NCBI GenBank assembly: GCA_020073585.1
Contig: JAIQEV010000037.1
Location: 1-37,640, forward strand
Direction: 5' to 3'
Length of the DNA stretch: 37,640 nt
Source: Terriglobia bacterium
GTDB taxonomy: Bacteria > Acidobacteriota > Terriglobia > Acidiferrales > UBA7541
How positions within the stretch are numbered: position 1 is the first letter of the stretch; each line of letters opens with the position of its first letter. The translations under genes and the position numbers were made by a program. Shown here in pieces: positions 28,070 through 37,073 of this stretch. The notes below the pieces were generated by a model that saw nothing but the letters and a program-made list of their open reading frames with translations, was not told the origin of the DNA and made no database searches.

Positions 28070-31000
28070 TTATTGCGGCTTCCCCTCGAGCGCGCGCGGC
28101 GCATTTTCCTTGCGCTGCGGCGCGGCCTTGTCCAGTATGCCGCGCACTTTGCGCGCCAGATCGGAAGGCCGGTAGGGCTTGGCGAGGAACTCAATTCCCG
28201 GATCGAGCACTCCGTGGTGAACGATGGCATCTTGCGTGTAGCCGGAGACGTAGAGCGCCTTGATGCCGGGGCGCAACTCCGTCAATTTCTGAACCAGCTG
28301 GGGACCGCTTAGTCCGGGCATGACCACATCGGTAATCACGATCGCAATCGGTCCGGGATGACTTTCCACAATGGGGAGCGCCTCGGCGCTGTTGCTGGCC
28401 ACGAGGAGGGTGTAGCCCTGCGCGGCGAGATACTCGCGGGCCATGGTGCGCAATTCCTCATCGTCCTCGACCACGAGGACGGTCTCCGTGCCGCGCATCT
28501 CTCCTTGCTGGGGCGTGGCGGCCGGCAAGGCCTGCGGTTTTTCGTTTACGCGCGGCAGGTAGATCTTGAAGGATGTGCCTTTGCCCACCTCGCTGTAGAC
28601 CTCGATGTGCCCGCCGCTCTGCTTGACGATACCGTAGACGGTGGAGAGTCCCAGCCCCGTGCCCTTGCCCGGCTCCTTGGTGGTGAAAAAGGGCTCGAAG
28701 ATGCGCTGCCGGGTGGCCTCGTCTATACCGGTCCCGGTGTCCGAGATGGCCAGCATGACGTATTCTCCAGGCTCTCCGGTTACATGCTTGCGGCAGTACT
28801 CCTCGTCCAGAGTCACATTGGCGGCCTCCAGAGTGAGAATGCCGCCGTGGGGCATGGCGTCTCTGGCGTTGACGGCTAGATTCATGACGACCTGCTCCAT
28901 CTGTCCGGGGTCGACTCGCACTTGTCCGAGGGAAGGATCGGCATGCCTGCGCAGTTCGATATTTTCTCCGATGAGATGCTGCAGCAGGTGATCCATGTCC
29001 TGGAGGAAGCCGTTCAGGTCCAGGACGCGGAGGGCCAGAACCTGTTTTCTGCTGAAGGCCAGCAATTGCTGGATGAGGGAAGCGGCGCGGCGGCCGGCTT
29101 TCTCGATGTGTTCGATTTTCTTGCGCTGGGGATCGCCGGGGGCCATGGCTTCCATGACGAGATCGGAGTAGCCCAGAATGGCACTTAACAGATTGTTAAA
29201 GTCGTGGGCGATGCCCCCGGCGAGCTGGCCGACGGCTTCCATTTTTTGCGCTTGACGATATTGCTCTTCGAGCTTGCGGAGCTCGGTAATGTCGTTGGCC
29301 TGGGAGGCGATTCCGACGACTTGCCCGGCGGCGTCCACCAAGGGAGAGCTGTACCATTCGCAGAGAATGATTTTGCCGTCCTTGGTGATGTTTTCCTGGG
29401 TGCCGCGGGCGCCGCCGCAACGCGCGAGGAGGCCGCCGGCGATCTCCCGCAAATGTTCGCGGGCGCTTTCCGGGAAGATGAAATTGAGTTCCCGCCCCAA
29501 AGCCTCGGCCCGGGAGTATCCGAAGACTTTCTCGGCGGCGAGATTCCATTCGGTGACCTGCAGAGCGTGGTTCCATTCGATGGCGGCCATGGGCGATTGC
29601 CGGACGTAGAGGGAGAGGCGCTGCTGGGATTCGCGCAGCTCTTCCAGCATCCGCAGGTGCTCCTGCATCTTTTCGCGCAGAATGGCGTTGGCCTGGGAGA
29701 ATTGGGTGGTGCGCTCGCGGACGCGCTGCTCCAATTCTTCCTGGTAGCGGCGCACCTCGTCTTCCATTTTTTTGCGCTCGGTGATGTCCGTCAGGGAGCC
29801 CACATAGCCGGTGATTTTTCCATCGTGGGTGACGACGGGGGCGGCCTGGGCGATGACCCACACCACGCCGAAGCTAGGATTCAGGTAGCGATGCTCGGAG
29901 TGGAAGCGGGAGCCCTGGCGGATAGCGCGCGCCAGGCCGCTGACGACGAGTTCGCGGTCGCCGGGATGGAGGGCCTGGGTCCATTCTCCGTTGCGCGCCT
30001 GTTTGGAGGAAAGACCGGTGATCTCACACCAGCGATGATTGACGTACAGGCTTTGCCCCTGGGCATCGGTGTAGAAGAATCCGACCGGGGAGACCTCCGC
30101 CAGATTGCGGAAGCGCTCTTCGCTCTGGCGCAGGGCCTGCTCCATCTGCTTGCGCTCGGTGATGTCCTCGGAGAGACCGAGGAGAAAGGCCGGAGAGCCG
30201 GAAGCGTCGCGAATGGAGATTTTCCTGGTATGGAGAATGCGGACGCCCTGGCGCTTGGTATGCAGGGCTTCCTCGGCAATGTCCACCAGCCGGCCGCTGG
30301 AGAAGACCTCGCGATCCTTGGAGGTGAAGAAGTCGGCCTCCGGCTTGGGGAACAGATCGTAGACATTGCGGCCCAGGAGCTCCGTGCGGGCAAAGCCCAG
30401 GAGCTCTTCGGCGGCTTTGTTGACGCGGACAAAGCGCAGGTCCTGGGCGTCCTTGAGGAAGACCATGTTGGGGATGTTTTCGACGATGGAATCGAGAAAA
30501 CTGTTGGCTTGGCTGACGATTTCTTCGCCAAACTTGCGCGCGCTGATGTCGGTCAAGGAGCCGGCCATGCGGCAGGGCCTGCCGGCGGCGTCGCGCCGGG
30601 AGATCCCCCGCGCGAGGACCCAGCGGTAGCTGCCGTTCTTGTGCAGCAGGCGGTGTTCGACCTCGAAGGCCGGAAGCGAGCCCTGCAGATGGGCCTGCAA
30701 CGCCGAGTGCACGCTGTTCCGATCGTCGGGATGAATGCGGCTGGCCCAACTCTCATAGACATTGGGCAGCTCGGAGTCCTGAAAGCCCAGAATCTGCTTG
30801 AAGCGCGGAGACAAGAAATTTTCGTTGGTGGGGATATGCCAGTCCCACAAGCCGTCGTTGGAACCGCCCACGGCCAGGGCATAGCGTTCCTCGCTCTCGC
30901 GCAGGGCCGCGGCAGCGCGGCGGCGATCCTGGATGTCCCGCGCCAGCATGTAGTAGACCGCGCCCAGCAGAAAGAGGAGCGCGGCCACGACCGCGGCAAT

Positions 31001-31555
31001 CAGCGCGAGGGTCCTGCGGGAGAGCAGAGCGAAGGTTTGTTCCCGGGAGTGGTGAAGGTCTTCGGCTGCTTGCTGCATCTCGGCGGCGGTCTGGAAGAAC
31101 TGGCGCATCTCCGCCGCGCCCCCGCCGGTCTGGACAAAGTCGCGGGAAGCTGCGAAGCCGGCGCGGCGGTGCAGGTCCAGGGCTTGCTGGAGCAGGTCCA
31201 GGCGCGCGGCAAGGTGGAACTCCAGGGAGGCGAGACGCTGGCGCTGGCGGGGGTTGTCCGCAACCAGCAGCCGCAGGCGGTCCAGGTGTTGCGGGAGGCG
31301 GAGACGCGCGGAATTGTAAAGATCGAGGTAGGAGTTGTCGCCGGTAAGTACAAAGCCGCGGCTGCTGGTTTCAGCCTCGGCGATGGCGGAGCGGGTGGCT
31401 GCGATTTCCTGGAGAAGGTCGTGGGAGCGCCAGACCACCCGGTTGTCGTCCGCGGCGGCGCGGATATTGTGGTAGGAAAAGAGAGCGAGGCCCAGGATGA
31501 CCGCGCCCGCCAGGGCGAGACCCGCCGCCGCCCTTGCTTGCATGGAAAACTTCAT
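28070..31555 (-). CDS. Hybrid sensor histidine kinase: CHASE3, four PAS, HisKA/HATPase, receiver
   Basis: The 1161-residue membrane kinase has a first helix (10-27) and a periplasmic CHASE3-like four-helix region (30-180, with [14 protein letters not shown]). A second helix spans 183-204. PAS domains lie near 220-340, 345-468, 475-592 and 645-760 (several end in [16 protein letters not shown]), and a coiled coil at 598-645. HisKA has His784 in [11 protein letters not shown]. The ATPase domain shows [21 protein letters not shown] and [11 protein letters not shown]. The receiver begins near 1020, with EDD at 1030-1032, phospho-acceptor Asp1076 in VITDVVMPG and Lys1126 in FLAKPY. It should sense an envelope signal plus cytoplasmic cues and relay phosphate. 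No separate response regulator or HPt gene is adjacent. ATG 31555 has only a distant GGAAG; an ATG four codons in is possible. Confidence 0.92.
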
Positions 31556-32407: not shown

Positions 32408-32485
32408 GGTGACGACGAAGCGGTCGCCCATAGGTGGGACCGCAAAGCGGTCAACACTAGGGATGATCGCAGAGCGAACAACATG
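32408..32485. repeat. Three tandem units of about 26 bases around GACCGCAAAGCGGTC palindromes
   Basis: Units are 32408-32433, 32434-32460 and 32461-32485. The middle one carries the perfect inverted repeat GACCGC-AAA-GCGGTC (32438-32452); the others have degenerate forms (GACGAAGCGGTC, GATCGCAGAGCGAAC). The last unit ends on the ATG of the following gene. Confidence 0.6.
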
Positions 32486-34150
32486 TTGAAGATTACTACA
32501 GAACGGAAGCGCGGGAAGCTGACTCTGAGCGTCGAGGGGCGGCTGGCCGGGCCGTGGGTGGCTACGCTGGAGCAGTGCTGGCGGGAGCTGCACGCGGGGT
32601 TCCCGAAACTGAAATTTTCCGTGAATTTGTGCGCGGTGAGTTTTATCGATGCGGCGGGACGGGAGCTGCTGCAGGAGATCCACCGGCGGGGCGCGCAGTT
32701 GCTGGCGGAAGGCTGTCTGAACCAGGAGATCATCCGGAAAATTGTGGGCTGCAAGAAGGGCCCGGACGGTGAAAAGAACGGCCCGGGCAAGGGCGGAAAC
32801 GGGTCGCAGATTATTTTTTACGGGTTTCTGTTGATGGCGCTGCTGCTGCCGGGCCGGCTGGCGGCGCAGCAGAGCGCGGCGCCGGGCGGGAGCGCGCCGA
32901 GCGGGGTGCTGCGGCTGACGCTGGACCAGGTGGTGGCGCTGGCGCTGAAGCAGAACACCACGGCGCGGATCGCGGCGCTGACGGCGGCGCAGAGCGAGCA
33001 GGAGAAGAACGTGGCGCGGGCGGCGCTGCTGCCGCAGGCGCAGATCACGGTGGACGACGCGGCGCGGCGCTTGAACCTGGAGACGGGATTCGGGCAGCGC
33101 TTTCCCGGGTTTCCGCAACACGCGGGTCCGTTCCAGGTGTTCAGCGCGGGGAGTTCGTTCGGGGGGCCGGTGCTAGACCTGACGCTGTGGCGGAAGTATC
33201 AGGCGGCGCGGGAGGCGGCGCGGGCGGAGCGCGCGACGAGCCTGGGGGTGCGCGAGGAAGTGGTGCTGGTGGTGGTGTCGCAATACATCGCGACGCTGCG
33301 CGCGCAAGCCAGCGTAAAGGCCTCGGAAGCGCGGGTGGCGCTGGGGGAGGCGTTGTTTGAGCTGGCGACGGACCTGCAGAAGGCCGGGGTGGGGACGGGG
33401 CTGGACACGCTGCGGGCCAACGTGGAGCTGCAGAACGAGAAGCAGCGGCTCTTGGAAGGGCAGGCGGAGCGCGCGGCGGCGCTCTATGGGCTGAGCCGGC
33501 TGCTGAATCTGGATCCGCGGCAGGAGATCGAGCTGGCCGATGCGAGCGAATTTTTCGATGCGTCACAGCCGGAGCTGGACGCGAGCCTGGAACAGGCGCA
33601 GGCGGCGCGGCCGGAATGGCAGGCGCTGGAAGCGAAGCTGCGCGCGGCGCGGGAGACGCGGAAGGCGGCCAGCGCGGCGCGGCTGCCGGCGCTGCGCTTC
33701 GACGGAAACTGGGCCTATGCGGGGGTCTCCGCGGGGACGGGAATCCCGGTCTACAACTATCAGGCCAGCGTGAATGTGCCGCTGTTCACCGGCGGACGGA
33801 TACACGCGGAGGTGGCGCGGGCGGGGCTGGAGATCCAGAAGCTGGAGCAGCAGCAAGCGGACCTGCGCAACGAAATCGCGCGGGAGGTGAAGACCGCGCT
33901 GGTGAACCTGAACGCGGCGCGCAGCGAAGTGCAGCTGGCGAATCTGAGCGTGCAACTGGCGAACGAGGAGGTGGCGCAGTCGCGCGACCGCTTCCGGGCC
34001 GGGGTGAGCAGCAACATCGAAGTGATCACGGCGCAAGCCGCGCTGGAGCGGGCCAACGACAACCAGATCACGGCGGTGTACCGCTGCAATCAGGCGCGGG
34101 CGGAACTGGCGCGGGCCACCGGACAGATGGAAAAGCGGTACGCGAAGTGA
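32483..34150 (+). CDS. STAS domain fused in frame to a TolC-family outer-membrane efflux protein
   Basis: The reading frame encodes 555 residues. Residues 1-90 look like a STAS/MlaB-type domain (LTLSVEGRLAGPWVATLE, then VSFIDAAGRELLQEI, with Ala where phosphorylated STAS proteins have Ser). Residues 91-107 are a Gly/Lys linker, 108-128 a hydrophobic signal-like segment (IIFYGFLLMALLLPGRLAAQ), and 140-550 a TolC-type outer-membrane factor with long coiled helices (LTLDQVVALALKQN, GRIHAEVARAGLEIQKLE). A cytoplasmic STAS module before an exported barrel is odd. Internal initiation at GTG 32744 (codon 88), behind a GGA, would give a normal TolC precursor. The gene leads an operon with the adaptor and pump genes, 7 and 24 bases apart. 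ATG 32483 has no clear ribosome site. Confidence 0.8.
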   Translation: MLKITTERKRGKLTLSVEGRLAGPWVATLEQCWRELHAGFPKLKFSVNLCAVSFIDAAGRELLQEIHRRGAQLLAEGCLNQEIIRKIVGCKKGPDGEKNGPGKGGNGSQIIFYGFLLMALLLPGRLAAQQSAAPGGSAPSGVLRLTLDQVVALALKQNTTARIAALTAAQSEQEKNVARAALLPQAQITVDDAARRLNLETGFGQRFPGFPQHAGPFQVFSAGSSFGGPVLDLTLWRKYQAAREAARAERATSLGVREEVVLVVVSQYIATLRAQASVKASEARVALGEALFELATDLQKAGVGTGLDTLRANVELQNEKQRLLEGQAERAAALYGLSRLLNLDPRQEIELADASEFFDASQPELDASLEQAQAARPEWQALEAKLRAARETRKAASAARLPALRFDGNWAYAGVSAGTGIPVYNYQASVNVPLFTGGRIHAEVARAGLEIQKLEQQQADLRNEIAREVKTALVNLNAARSEVQLANLSVQLANEEVAQSRDRFRAGVSSNIEVITAQAALERANDNQITAVYRCNQARAELARATGQMEKRYAK

Positions 34151-34157
34151 GGGACTG

Positions 34158-35459
34158 ATGGGCATCGAGATCGAAGTCGGACTGGAAAACGCGCCGCGGA
34201 TGCCGGCCGCCGCGGAGGAGCCGCCGGCGCAGAAAGCGGAAGCGACGGGGCTGGCGAACCCGAAGCTGCAGCGGGCGCTGCTGGGCGCGGGGATGGGGCT
34301 GCTAGCGGTGATCAGCGGGCTGTACTTCTATTACCACCTGCGGGAGAGCACGGATGACGCGCAGGTGGACGGACACGTCACGCCGGTGGCGGCCAAGGTG
34401 TACGGGCGCGTGGAGCAGGTGCTGGTGGAGGACAACCAGGCGGTGAAGGCCGGGCAGGTGCTGGTGCGGCTGGACGCGCGGGATTATCAGGCCAACGTGG
34501 ACCAGGCGCGGGCGGCGGTGACGCTGGCGGAGAGCGAAGCGCGGGCAGCGGGGATCGACGTGCCGCGGACGCGCGAGAGCATGGCCAGCGGAACGTCCAG
34601 CGCGGAAGCGCAACTGGCGGGGGCGGAGGCGGAGCTGCAGCGCGCGCAGGGGGCCTACGACCTGGCGCGCACGGCGGACCTGGCGTACGCGCAGGCCAAC
34701 GTGGCGCGGAGCCAGGCGAATGCGCAATTGGCCAAGGCCGATCTGGAGCGCTTCCTGCCGCTGGCGGCGAAGGACGAAATTTCCAAGCAGCAACTGGACG
34801 CGGCGCGGGCCAACGCGGAGGCCGCGGGCAGCACGCTGCACGCGGACCAGGAGCGGCTGGCGCAGGCGGAGCGGAACATCTCGATCACCCAGTCGGCGTA
34901 TCAGGCGGCGCAGGCGCGGGTGGACCAAGCGCGCGCGGGGATCGGGGCGGCGCGGGCCAACCTGAAGCAGGTGACGATGCGCAGCGCGGAAGCGCAGGCC
35001 AAACTGGCGCGGGTGGAGCAGGCGCGGGCGGCGCTGACGTACGCGGAGCTGACGCTGCAGGCGGCGACGGTGGTGGCGCCGGCGGACGGAGTGGTGACGC
35101 GCAAGCAGGTGGAACCGGGGCAGGTGGTGCAGGGAGGGCAGGGGCTGCTGGTGCTGGTGCCGCTGCACAACGTGTGGGTGACGGCGAACTTCAAGGAGAC
35201 GCAACTGCGGCGGATGAAGGCGGGGCAGAAGGCGTACGTGCAGGTGGACACCTACGGGAGCACGTTCACCGGGCACGTGGACTCGATCGCGGGAGCGACG
35301 GGGGCGCGGCTGAGCCTGCTGCCGGCGGAAAACGCGACGGGGAATTTCGTGAAGGTGGTGCAGCGCATCCCGGTAAAGATCGTGCTGGACGCGATCCCGG
35401 GAGAGAAAGCGGTGCTGCGGCCGGGGATGAACGCGGACGTGACGGTGGTGACGAAGTAA
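34158..35459 (+). CDS. emrA: EmrA/HlyD-family membrane-fusion (periplasmic adaptor) protein
   Basis: The 433-residue adaptor has a cytoplasmic N-terminus, one membrane helix near 40-58 (LLGAGMGLLAVISGLYFYYH) and the EmrA signature STDDAQVDGHVTPVAAKVYG. The first half of the lipoyl domain (VLVRLDARDYQ) follows, then a long alpha-helical hairpin rich in Ala/Gln/Arg (about 105-300). The second lipoyl half and barrel contain APADGVVTRKQVEPGQVVQ, WVTANFKETQLRRM and LRPGMNADVTV. It bridges the inner-membrane pump to the TolC-like channel for export of drugs or other toxic compounds. It starts 7 bases after the TolC gene stop, with GAGGG just before the ATG. Confidence 0.93.
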   Translation: MGIEIEVGLENAPRMPAAAEEPPAQKAEATGLANPKLQRALLGAGMGLLAVISGLYFYYHLRESTDDAQVDGHVTPVAAKVYGRVEQVLVEDNQAVKAGQVLVRLDARDYQANVDQARAAVTLAESEARAAGIDVPRTRESMASGTSSAEAQLAGAEAELQRAQGAYDLARTADLAYAQANVARSQANAQLAKADLERFLPLAAKDEISKQQLDAARANAEAAGSTLHADQERLAQAERNISITQSAYQAAQARVDQARAGIGAARANLKQVTMRSAEAQAKLARVEQARAALTYAELTLQAATVVAPADGVVTRKQVEPGQVVQGGQGLLVLVPLHNVWVTANFKETQLRRMKAGQKAYVQVDTYGSTFTGHVDSIAGATGARLSLLPAENATGNFVKVVQRIPVKIVLDAIPGEKAVLRPGMNADVTVVTK

Positions 35460-35483: not shown

Positions 35484-37073
35484 ATGGGCGAGCGAATCTT
35501 AGCGAAGCTGCGGACGGCGGACGGGGGCATCAACCCCTGGGTGATCGCCGTAACGGTGACGCTGGCGACGTTTATGGAGGTGCTGGACACCTCGATCGCC
35601 AACGTGGCGCTGCCGCACATCGCGGGAAATCTCTCGGCGGGGATCGACGAATCGACGTGGGTGCTGACGTCGTACCTGGTGTCGAACGCGATCGTGCTGC
35701 CGCTGTCGGGGTGGTTTTCGTCGCTGCTGGGGCGCAAGCGGTTCTACATGATGTGCGTGGCGCTGTTCACGGCGAGCTCGTTTCTGTGCGGGCTGGCGCC
35801 GAGCCTTGGCGTGCTGGTGTTCTTCCGGATCTTGCAGGGGGCGGGGGGCGGGGGATTGCAGCCAAGCGAGCAGGCGATCCTGAGCGACACGTTTCCGGCG
35901 GCGAAGAAGGGCATGGCCTTCGCGGTGTACGGAGTGGCGGTGGTGGTGGCGCCGACGCTGGGGCCGTGGCTGGGCGGGTGGATCACGGACAACTTTTCGT
36001 GGCGCTGGATTTTCTACATCAACGTGCCGGTGGGGATCATCTCGCTGCTGCTGACGTCGCTGCTGATCAGCGATCCGCCGTACATGAAGCGCATCAATTT
36101 GAAGCAGGGGTTCCGGGTGGACTACATCGGGATCGGGCTGCTGAGCCTGGGGCTGGGCAGCCTGCAGATCATCCTGGACAAGGGGCAGCGCGAGGACTGG
36201 CTGCACTCGGACTTCATCCGGGTCTTTTTCGTGTTGATGATCGTGGGGCTGGCGGCGGCGGTGATCTGGGAGCTGCGGGAGAAGGAACCGGTGGTGGATC
36301 TGCGGATGCTGAAGAACCGCAACTTCGCGATCGGGACGATGAGCATGTTCTTTCTGGGGTTCGTGCTGTACGCGAGCACGGTGCTGATTCCGCAGTTTCT
36401 GCAGCAGCTGATGGGCTACAACGCGGAGCTGGCGGGACTGGCGCTGTCGCCGGGCGGGCTGGTGATCATGCTGATGATGCCGGTGGTGGGGACGCTGGTG
36501 TCCAAGGTGGAAGCGCGCTGGCTGGTGATGTTGGGGTGCGTGGTGTGCTCGGCGGCGCTGTTCGTGATGGCCGGGTGGAACCTGGATATTTCCTACGGGA
36601 TCGCGGTGAAGGCGCGGATGCTGCAGAGCCTGGGGCTGGCGTTTCTGTTCATCCCCATCAACGTGGCGGCGTTTTCCTACGTGGCCAAAGAGAAGACGAA
36701 CATGGGCACGGGGATCATCAATTTGGCGCGGAACATCGGGGCGAGCGTGGGGATCGCCACGGTGACGACGATGCTGGAACGGCGGGCGCAGTTTCACCAG
36801 GCGCACCTGGCGGAGCACGTGAATGCCATGAGCCCGGCGTATCAAGGCTTTATGGCCCAGACGTCGGCGTATTTCGCGGGGCGCGGGGCGGATGCGGCGC
36901 AGGCCGCAGGGCAGGCGCACCGGCTGCTGTACAACCTGGTGGGGCGGCAGGCGGCGATGCTGGCGTTCATCGACAACTTCTGGATGCTGGGCGTGATTTT
37001 TCTGGGGATGATGCCGCTGCTGGTGTTCCTGAAGAAGGCGGAACCGCCCCAGGGGCCGCTGGCGGGGCACTGA
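35484..37073 (+). CDS. emrB: DHA2-family MFS drug:proton antiporter (EmrB/QacA type)
   Basis: The 529-residue pump has the 14-helix DHA2 pattern. Motifs seen: LATFMEVLDTSIANVALPHI in helix 1, the loop 2-3 motif GRKRFY, QGAGGGGLQPSEQAILSD, and the antiporter motif C region GPTLGPxLGG, here APTLGPWLGGWITD, then WRWIFYINVPVGI. It exports lipophilic compounds through the adaptor and TolC-type channel encoded upstream, forming a three-part EmrAB-TolC-like efflux line. It is the last gene of the operon, 24 bases after the adaptor. The substrate cannot be told from sequence, and no adjacent TetR/MarR regulator is visible. Confidence 0.94.
   Translation: MGERILAKLRTADGGINPWVIAVTVTLATFMEVLDTSIANVALPHIAGNLSAGIDESTWVLTSYLVSNAIVLPLSGWFSSLLGRKRFYMMCVALFTASSFLCGLAPSLGVLVFFRILQGAGGGGLQPSEQAILSDTFPAAKKGMAFAVYGVAVVVAPTLGPWLGGWITDNFSWRWIFYINVPVGIISLLLTSLLISDPPYMKRINLKQGFRVDYIGIGLLSLGLGSLQIILDKGQREDWLHSDFIRVFFVLMIVGLAAAVIWELREKEPVVDLRMLKNRNFAIGTMSMFFLGFVLYASTVLIPQFLQQLMGYNAELAGLALSPGGLVIMLMMPVVGTLVSKVEARWLVMLGCVVCSAALFVMAGWNLDISYGIAVKARMLQSLGLAFLFIPINVAAFSYVAKEKTNMGTGIINLARNIGASVGIATVTTMLERRAQFHQAHLAEHVNAMSPAYQGFMAQTSAYFAGRGADAAQAAGQAHRLLYNLVGRQAAMLAFIDNFWMLGVIFLGMMPLLVFLKKAEPPQGPLAGH

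Follow-up and report, generated by a model that had tools for sequence, protein, structure and literature searches.

A STAS domain and a TolC-type outer-membrane channel are encoded as one protein in the window analysed here, a stretch of 37,640 nucleotides that is also the entire contig of a Terriglobia bacterium. This STAS-TolC fusion is genuine: a single frame of 555 codons runs from its ATG to its stop on the forward strand without an internal stop, as the initial annotation had observed (Table 1). The STAS-channel fusion is furthermore old and recurrent. With a probability of about 0.72, the single polypeptide would be divided by signal peptidase into a STAS regulator, either anchored in the membrane or freed, and the exported channel of a pump operon, the export, the cleavage and the function of STAS being the parts that we infer.

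The channel part belongs to the Pfam OEP family (PF02321, E 4.8e-48), and its fold is matched to TolC by Foldseek (E 2.2e-20). The full-length AlphaFold2 model (pLDDT 76.9, pTM 0.53) is composed of the STAS domain, a low-confidence stretch and a TolC-like domain. The pLDDT is below 50 over most of residues 91-138, and a helix is modelled at residues 112-120.

Table 1. Features of the fused gene and its surroundings (positions in the window).
Feature	Positions	Strand	Basis
PAS hybrid kinase, upstream of the fusion	28070-31555	divergent	domain scan
REP-like repeat GACCGCAAAGCGGTC	32438..32452	+	56 exact genome copies, 0 of the reversed control
Fused STAS-TolC gene, 555 aa	32483..34150	+	open frame; relatives in the same frame
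STAS domain, residues 1-88, Ala57 at the phospho-Ser position	32483..32746	+	family profile, PDB profile matches, fold
Charged low-confidence linker, residues 89-109	32747..32809	+	low pLDDT; dN/dS above STAS and channel
Internal signal-peptide-like segment, residues 110-128, predicted cut after Ala128	32810..32866	+	hydrophobic core; A128/Q129 kept
Predicted mature outer-membrane channel (OEP/TolC), residues 129-555	32867..34150	+	PF02321; Foldseek to TolC
EmrA-type HlyD adaptor	34158..35459	+	Pfam
EmrB-type MFS exporter	35484..37073	+	Pfam
ECF-type sigma factor, cut by the contig end	37144..37640	+	PF04542 2.4e-20; PF07638 2.2e-4

Conservation and selection

The fusion is found in frame, from residue 1 through the junction and without a stop, in 33 of the 36 genomes of the genus (Acidobacteriota, Ca. 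Acidiferrum-like). This excludes chance, an assembly error, and the frameshift or base error between the domains that the initial annotation had raised against it. Thirty of the 33 cover essentially the whole protein; the matches in G025 and G029 extend to residues 518 and 427, respectively, and that in G001 reaches residue 347 and continues in further pieces. In the other three genomes, the match ends at a contig end (G011) or is distant only (G014 and G026). Among named genomes, 32 records were retrieved, many of them evidently identical contigs judging by their equal lengths, and 31 of the 32 match residues 1 to 149 or 150. They are mostly labelled Acidobacteria gp2 and Candidatus Acidiferrum/Acidoferrales MAGs, and one is labelled Betaproteobacteria.

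The STAS codons are under strong purifying selection. Over 12 hand-chosen pairs, with three values (one each for STAS, linker and signal) set to 0 because synonymous sites are saturated, STAS has the lowest median dN/dS (0.043), followed by the channel (0.064), the signal (0.18), and the linker (0.19).

The STAS domain

By sequence and by fold, the STAS domain is nearest to SpoIIAA/RsbV. A Pfam scan of the window's own N-terminal domain alone gives no match, and the other 17 of the 18 aligned family members match PF01740 at a permissive cut-off of E ≤ 10 (best 1.2e-6). Compared with the PDB, the family profile retrieves TM1442 at 1.1e-5, RsfB and SpoIIAA at up to 2e-3 (SpoIIAA at 1.1e-3), and MlaB at 0.44 only. 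The Foldseek matches of the AlphaFold2 model of the domain (pLDDT 85) are headed by RsbV/SpoIIAA, with a probability of 1.00, and include MlaB structures at ranks 16, 18, 20, and 24.

The domain carries Asp56-Ala57, and the alanine at the phospho-Ser position noticed in the initial annotation is Ala57; position 57 is taken as the STAS phospho-site, on the basis of Thr52 in MlaB (PMC7367683) among others. A Ser or Thr is observed at position 57 in 1/33 genus fusions, 0/16 other channel fusions, 0/6 ECF-linked STAS, 0/3 other fusions, and 0/17 other channel-linked STAS, the last being "split" rows that include the frameshifted fusions L112 and L113. It is found in 9 of the 29 CRP-linked STAS and in 5 of the 21 having none of these neighbours. 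The near absence of Ser/Thr from pump-linked STAS makes phospho-switching unlikely in that group. In Vibrio fischeri, the activity of the S56A mutant of the STAS protein SypA no longer depends on its regulator SypE (PMC4517449); by analogy, Ala57 may correspond to an "always on" STAS.

Operon and regulatory neighbours

By gene content, the channel, the linked HlyD adaptor and the MFS exporter constitute an EmrAB-TolC-type set. Downstream of the pump genes, an ECF sigma gene is present in 19/19 genus loci that reach that far (18 fetched loci and L043). In two genus genomes (L066 8582-8671 and L069 4230-4319), emrB is seemingly lost, and a 90-nt remnant lies between emrA and the ECF gene. Several tolC-emrA-emrB operons also harbor a cytidylate-kinase-like gene (PF13189), as in L033 (5572-6246).

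No RsbW/SpoIIAB-type kinase is matched in the window. Elsewhere in its own genome, two RsbW-type matches exceed the cut-off, a strong, unlinked one (29% identical over 146 residues) and a marginal one. An RsbW-type gene accompanies four ECF-linked STAS loci from three genomes (L041, L080, L083, and L193), HATPase_c_2 being confirmed for three of the four, and none is matched at other ECF-linked loci such as L036, L042, L085, L100, L104, and L150. In L193 (834-4837) and L083 (650-6767), a sensor/activator-like gene, an RsbW-type kinase, a membrane-anchored STAS and an ECF sigma gene lie close together, with another frame between STAS and ECF sigma in L083. A membrane partner-switch module is a possible reading of this cluster. 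The ECF sigma and RsbW-type neighbours, together with the position-57 pattern, favour with moderate confidence an RsbV-like regulatory role for STAS.

In 27 of the 30 genus loci, a TGG-N9-TGC element of the sigma54 type (-24/-12) precedes the STAS start, its usual position being -44. With these loci included, it starts 30-72 nt before the STAS start in 78/123 upstream regions, for a mean of 1.29 and a maximum of 4 after shuffling. This count is post hoc, since both the core and the range of -72 to -30 were picked after positional clustering had been noticed; the shuffles preserve nothing but base composition, and loci from the same genus do not count as independent. In most groups, the full 11-position sigma54 score is close to that of the shuffles. 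The element is absent from the window, L002 and L004, and no sigma54-type site is found upstream of the window's gene, between 31500 and 32482. The REP-like repeat stands about where most genus relatives carry the element; several of its genome copies follow one another at intervals of 26-27 bases. A sigma54-type promoter inside the gene, ahead of the channel, was considered and rejected: the initial 420 nt of 30 genes contain three scattered matches. The sites ahead of the STAS start in relatives and the STAS dN/dS of about 0.04 argue against the initial proposal of a STAS translated solely by readthrough.

The rpoN gene is present in the own genome. A GAFTGA-bearing activator gene adjoins 53 of the 88 STAS genes tested, including 15/31 channel-linked and 24/28 CRP-linked ones, and none is found beside the genus channel loci of the tested set (L039, L041-L044); the PF00158 profile also matches in 14/14 control genomes. 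The CRP-linked arrangement, in which STAS precedes a CRP/FNR gene, is observed in L034, L035, L037, L038, and 25 more loci.

Distribution and origin of the fusion

The STAS profile is matched at E ≤ 1e-8 in 70/151 genomes of the class and in 29/247 drawn from the phylum, and at 1e-10 in 61/89 genomes of the family. Sorting by neighbours of 100 loci (20 plus 80, selected among the profile matches listed) separates STAS genes that precede a CRP/FNR gene from those that precede tolC-emrA-emrB, those that adjoin ECF sigma and pump genes, and those with no such neighbour; L149 gives no match at the cut-off used in this sorting. In many operons, STAS stands as a separate gene directly before tolC-emrA, in keeping with the link between STAS and envelope export suspected in the initial annotation. 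In L079, L093, and L097, the STAS gene lies 0.8-1.4 kb before a channel. Split operons being common, the fusion is not required for function.

A tree was computed from selected rows, with the genus represented by 8 of its 30 loci plus L043 and L044, and with the frameshifted channels L112 and L113 and the stop-containing L039 omitted. It contains 38 STAS-linked channels (26 fused and 12 split) and three extra rows devoid of STAS. Twenty-four of the fused rows, belonging to families f1, f6, f7, and f11, cluster together with a support of 92/86 (not starred); inside this group are found one long-branch STAS-less row and no split row. The split pair L108/L109 is located beside this group, their joint clade being supported at 100/100, and the L041/L042 fusions are placed elsewhere. 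Two gains of the fusion, that of L041/L042 being the second, are the most parsimonious account, three losses being the alternative; with a midpoint root, gain and loss are not separable for certain. Separate genes, which the initial annotation had set against the fusion, thus do occur in other lineages, and the fusion conserved in the window's own lineage stands.

Beyond the genus, the fusion sought in relatives is found in other families and in one genome from outside the class (L187); further cases are L183, L185, L186, and the second-type fusion L184. In the latter (1600-2060), the STAS C-terminus and the signal helix are duplicated in tandem. The STAS family is also fused to other partners: to a HlyD adaptor in L080 (HlyD_D23 1.5e-8 and STAS_2 9.1e-4 in one protein) and to a channel named NodT-type by eye in L141 (OEP 3.5e-39). 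In L148 (4540-5727), STAS and signal are joined to a protein without Pfam match. A search of an open-access library for a STAS-channel fusion or for bacterial signal-peptidase polyproteins gave no description of this fusion among the matches listed.

Linker, internal signal and predicted cut

In the window's protein, STAS and linker are followed by a hydrophobic segment (about residues 110-122) and by GRLAA|QQ, so that the signal would act internally, as first anticipated. A128 and Q129 are invariant in 12 genus sequences, and the 30 full genus loci align throughout STAS, linker, IIFY-type helix and (A)xAQ. Among 56 fused or anchored proteins, 51 have a net positive charge in the 12 residues ahead of the hydrophobic core, 55 a core of mean KD ≥ 2.0, and 32 an AxA after the core, sought over a stretch and not at one place. 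A loose signal-peptidase pattern matches 56/56 and discriminates little, and a lipobox pattern matches 0/56. Lipobox-like signals were read by eye at the junctions of the sister fusions L080 and L141. The window's own fusion has Leu at -3 (LAA|Q) in place of a strict AxA. A signal peptidase I gene is present in the own genome. The internal export signal is probably cut.

Core hydrophobicity is greater in fused channels (median 2.96, n=18) than in the signals of stand-alone channels (median 2.21, n=16); the p value of 2.5e-4 is indicative only, because the rows are related. This comparison leaves out the first-type fusions of the genus, 2/18 fused rows (L041 and L042) being second-type fusions of the window's genus, and 3/16 stand-alone channel rows lack STAS. 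Such stronger hydrophobicity would be expected if targeting must be co-translational. In L083, L190, and L193, STAS ends soon after a helix of this kind, and may thus resemble the product that cutting the fusion would leave.

Proposed mechanism and alternatives

In the proposed mechanism, STAS would be translated first and fold in the cytoplasm, and the helix after the linker would act as an internal, N-in signal sequence. The channel part would then be exported by the Sec machinery, signal peptidase I would cut after Ala128, and the channel would reach the outer membrane, there serving an EmrAB-TolC-type pump. STAS itself would remain as an inner-membrane tail-anchored protein, or be freed by later proteolysis of the signal peptide. 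Most likely, it would be an RsbV-like regulatory partner that cannot be phosphorylated, in a sigma54- and ECF sigma-associated circuit, the fusion setting one STAS per exported channel subunit.

A neutral fusion, a serious contender at somewhat less than even odds, has the processing step in common with this mechanism, the sole difference being that the joint would have no function: a stop codon would have been lost, and signal peptidase would restore both old products. Split and fused operons are alike in gene order and promoter-like site, the linker and signal evolve faster than the two domains, and the partners of the fusion vary, all of which such a fusion would accommodate. It is less easily reconciled with the absence of any split row within the 24 fused rows of four families, a group of the support given above with its one STAS-less row, and with the greater hydrophobicity of the fused-channel cores.

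At the other end, the joint may itself carry a signal. Each channel subunit translocated and cut would leave one STAS at the inner membrane, or free it, and the cell would count completed exports in order to control the pump operon through sigma54 and ECF sigma. This export-coupled signalling is speculative and rather unlikely, as is, within the same reading, the view of the STAS prefix as a reusable "report-on-export" module that would serve TolC-type channels, a NodT-type lipoprotein channel, an RND adaptor lipoprotein, and an exported protein without assignment.

Two products from one frame, the channel by internal initiation (e.g. at GTG 32744) and STAS by a separate or terminated event, are improbable. 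The initial annotation proposed this GTG as the channel start, and it does form codon 88 of the window. This codon is, however, start-capable in only 9/30 genus relatives, two of which, the window not among them, have a Shine-Dalgarno-like stretch, and GTG 32744 was rejected as the channel start. Between codons 60 and 128, no column exceeds 16/30, the best being codon 84, which is never ATG, and ATG is present in at most 3/30 loci at any column. No stop codon separates STAS and channel in 30/30 genus loci. In the split relative L108, the channel ATG directly follows the STAS stop codon in the same frame, and four of the 30 (L006, L008, L009, and L015) have a start-capable linker codon, 97 or 99, with a Shine-Dalgarno-like stretch; both observations speak for internal initiation, which is nevertheless unlikely.

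An uncut signal, by which STAS would stay tethered to the channel in a protein spanning from inner to outer membrane, would fit the Leu at -3 and the lack of a strict AxA in the window. It is very improbable in view of the conserved A128-Q129, the AxA near the expected place in 32/56, and the lipobox-like sites seen by eye in two sister fusions, and an outer-membrane channel is unlikely to be held at the inner membrane. Weakest of all is the reading of STAS as an MlaB-like subunit of a lipid transporter, to which the initial annotation had alluded: MlaB structures do figure among the fold matches, but the sequence profile prefers TM1442 and SpoIIAA, and the scanned neighbours (HlyD, MFS, ECF sigma, PAS hybrid kinase) include no MlaF/MlaE ABC genes.

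A signal-peptidase-divided polyprotein is hence the most likely mechanism. A cytoplasmic regulatory domain and an outer-membrane channel on one polypeptide are unexpected, and the fusion makes export-coupled signalling directly testable. It also suggests that STAS-prefixed genes are easily mis-started or trimmed during annotation.

Comparison with known systems

MlaB shares with the window's STAS its fold and a link to envelope transport, and binds an ABC ATPase (PMC7367683); no such partner is recognised at this locus. SypA of Vibrio fischeri is a STAS protein whose gene opens a locus with the sigma54-dependent activator SypG, and its authors see no evidence of an anti-anti-sigma role (PMC4517449). 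The window's STAS likewise belongs to genes standing first in a sigma54-associated locus; SypA, however, retains its Ser, stands alone, and serves a biofilm locus.

The SpoIIAA/RsbV antagonists resemble the window's STAS in fold and sequence profile, and some members of the sister family likewise lie beside ECF sigma and RsbW-type kinase genes. In contrast to them, the window's STAS has Ala57 for the phospho-Ser, is fused to an exported protein, and has no linked kinase in the window. The EmrAB-TolC pump is, as here, composed of a channel, a HlyD adaptor and an MFS exporter. In E. coli, tolC is unlinked; in the window, the three genes form one operon, and the channel differs by its STAS prefix.

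The conserved and recurrent fusion across an internal signal suggests that regulators can be produced from polyproteins through processing by signal peptidase. In the Bradyrhizobium FbcH cytochrome b/c1 polyprotein, one product is reportedly divided at an internal signal by signal peptidase, in the way proposed here for a single gene product. FbcH is said to give rise to two respiratory subunits, whereas the fusion of the window would yield a cytoplasmic regulator and an outer-membrane channel.
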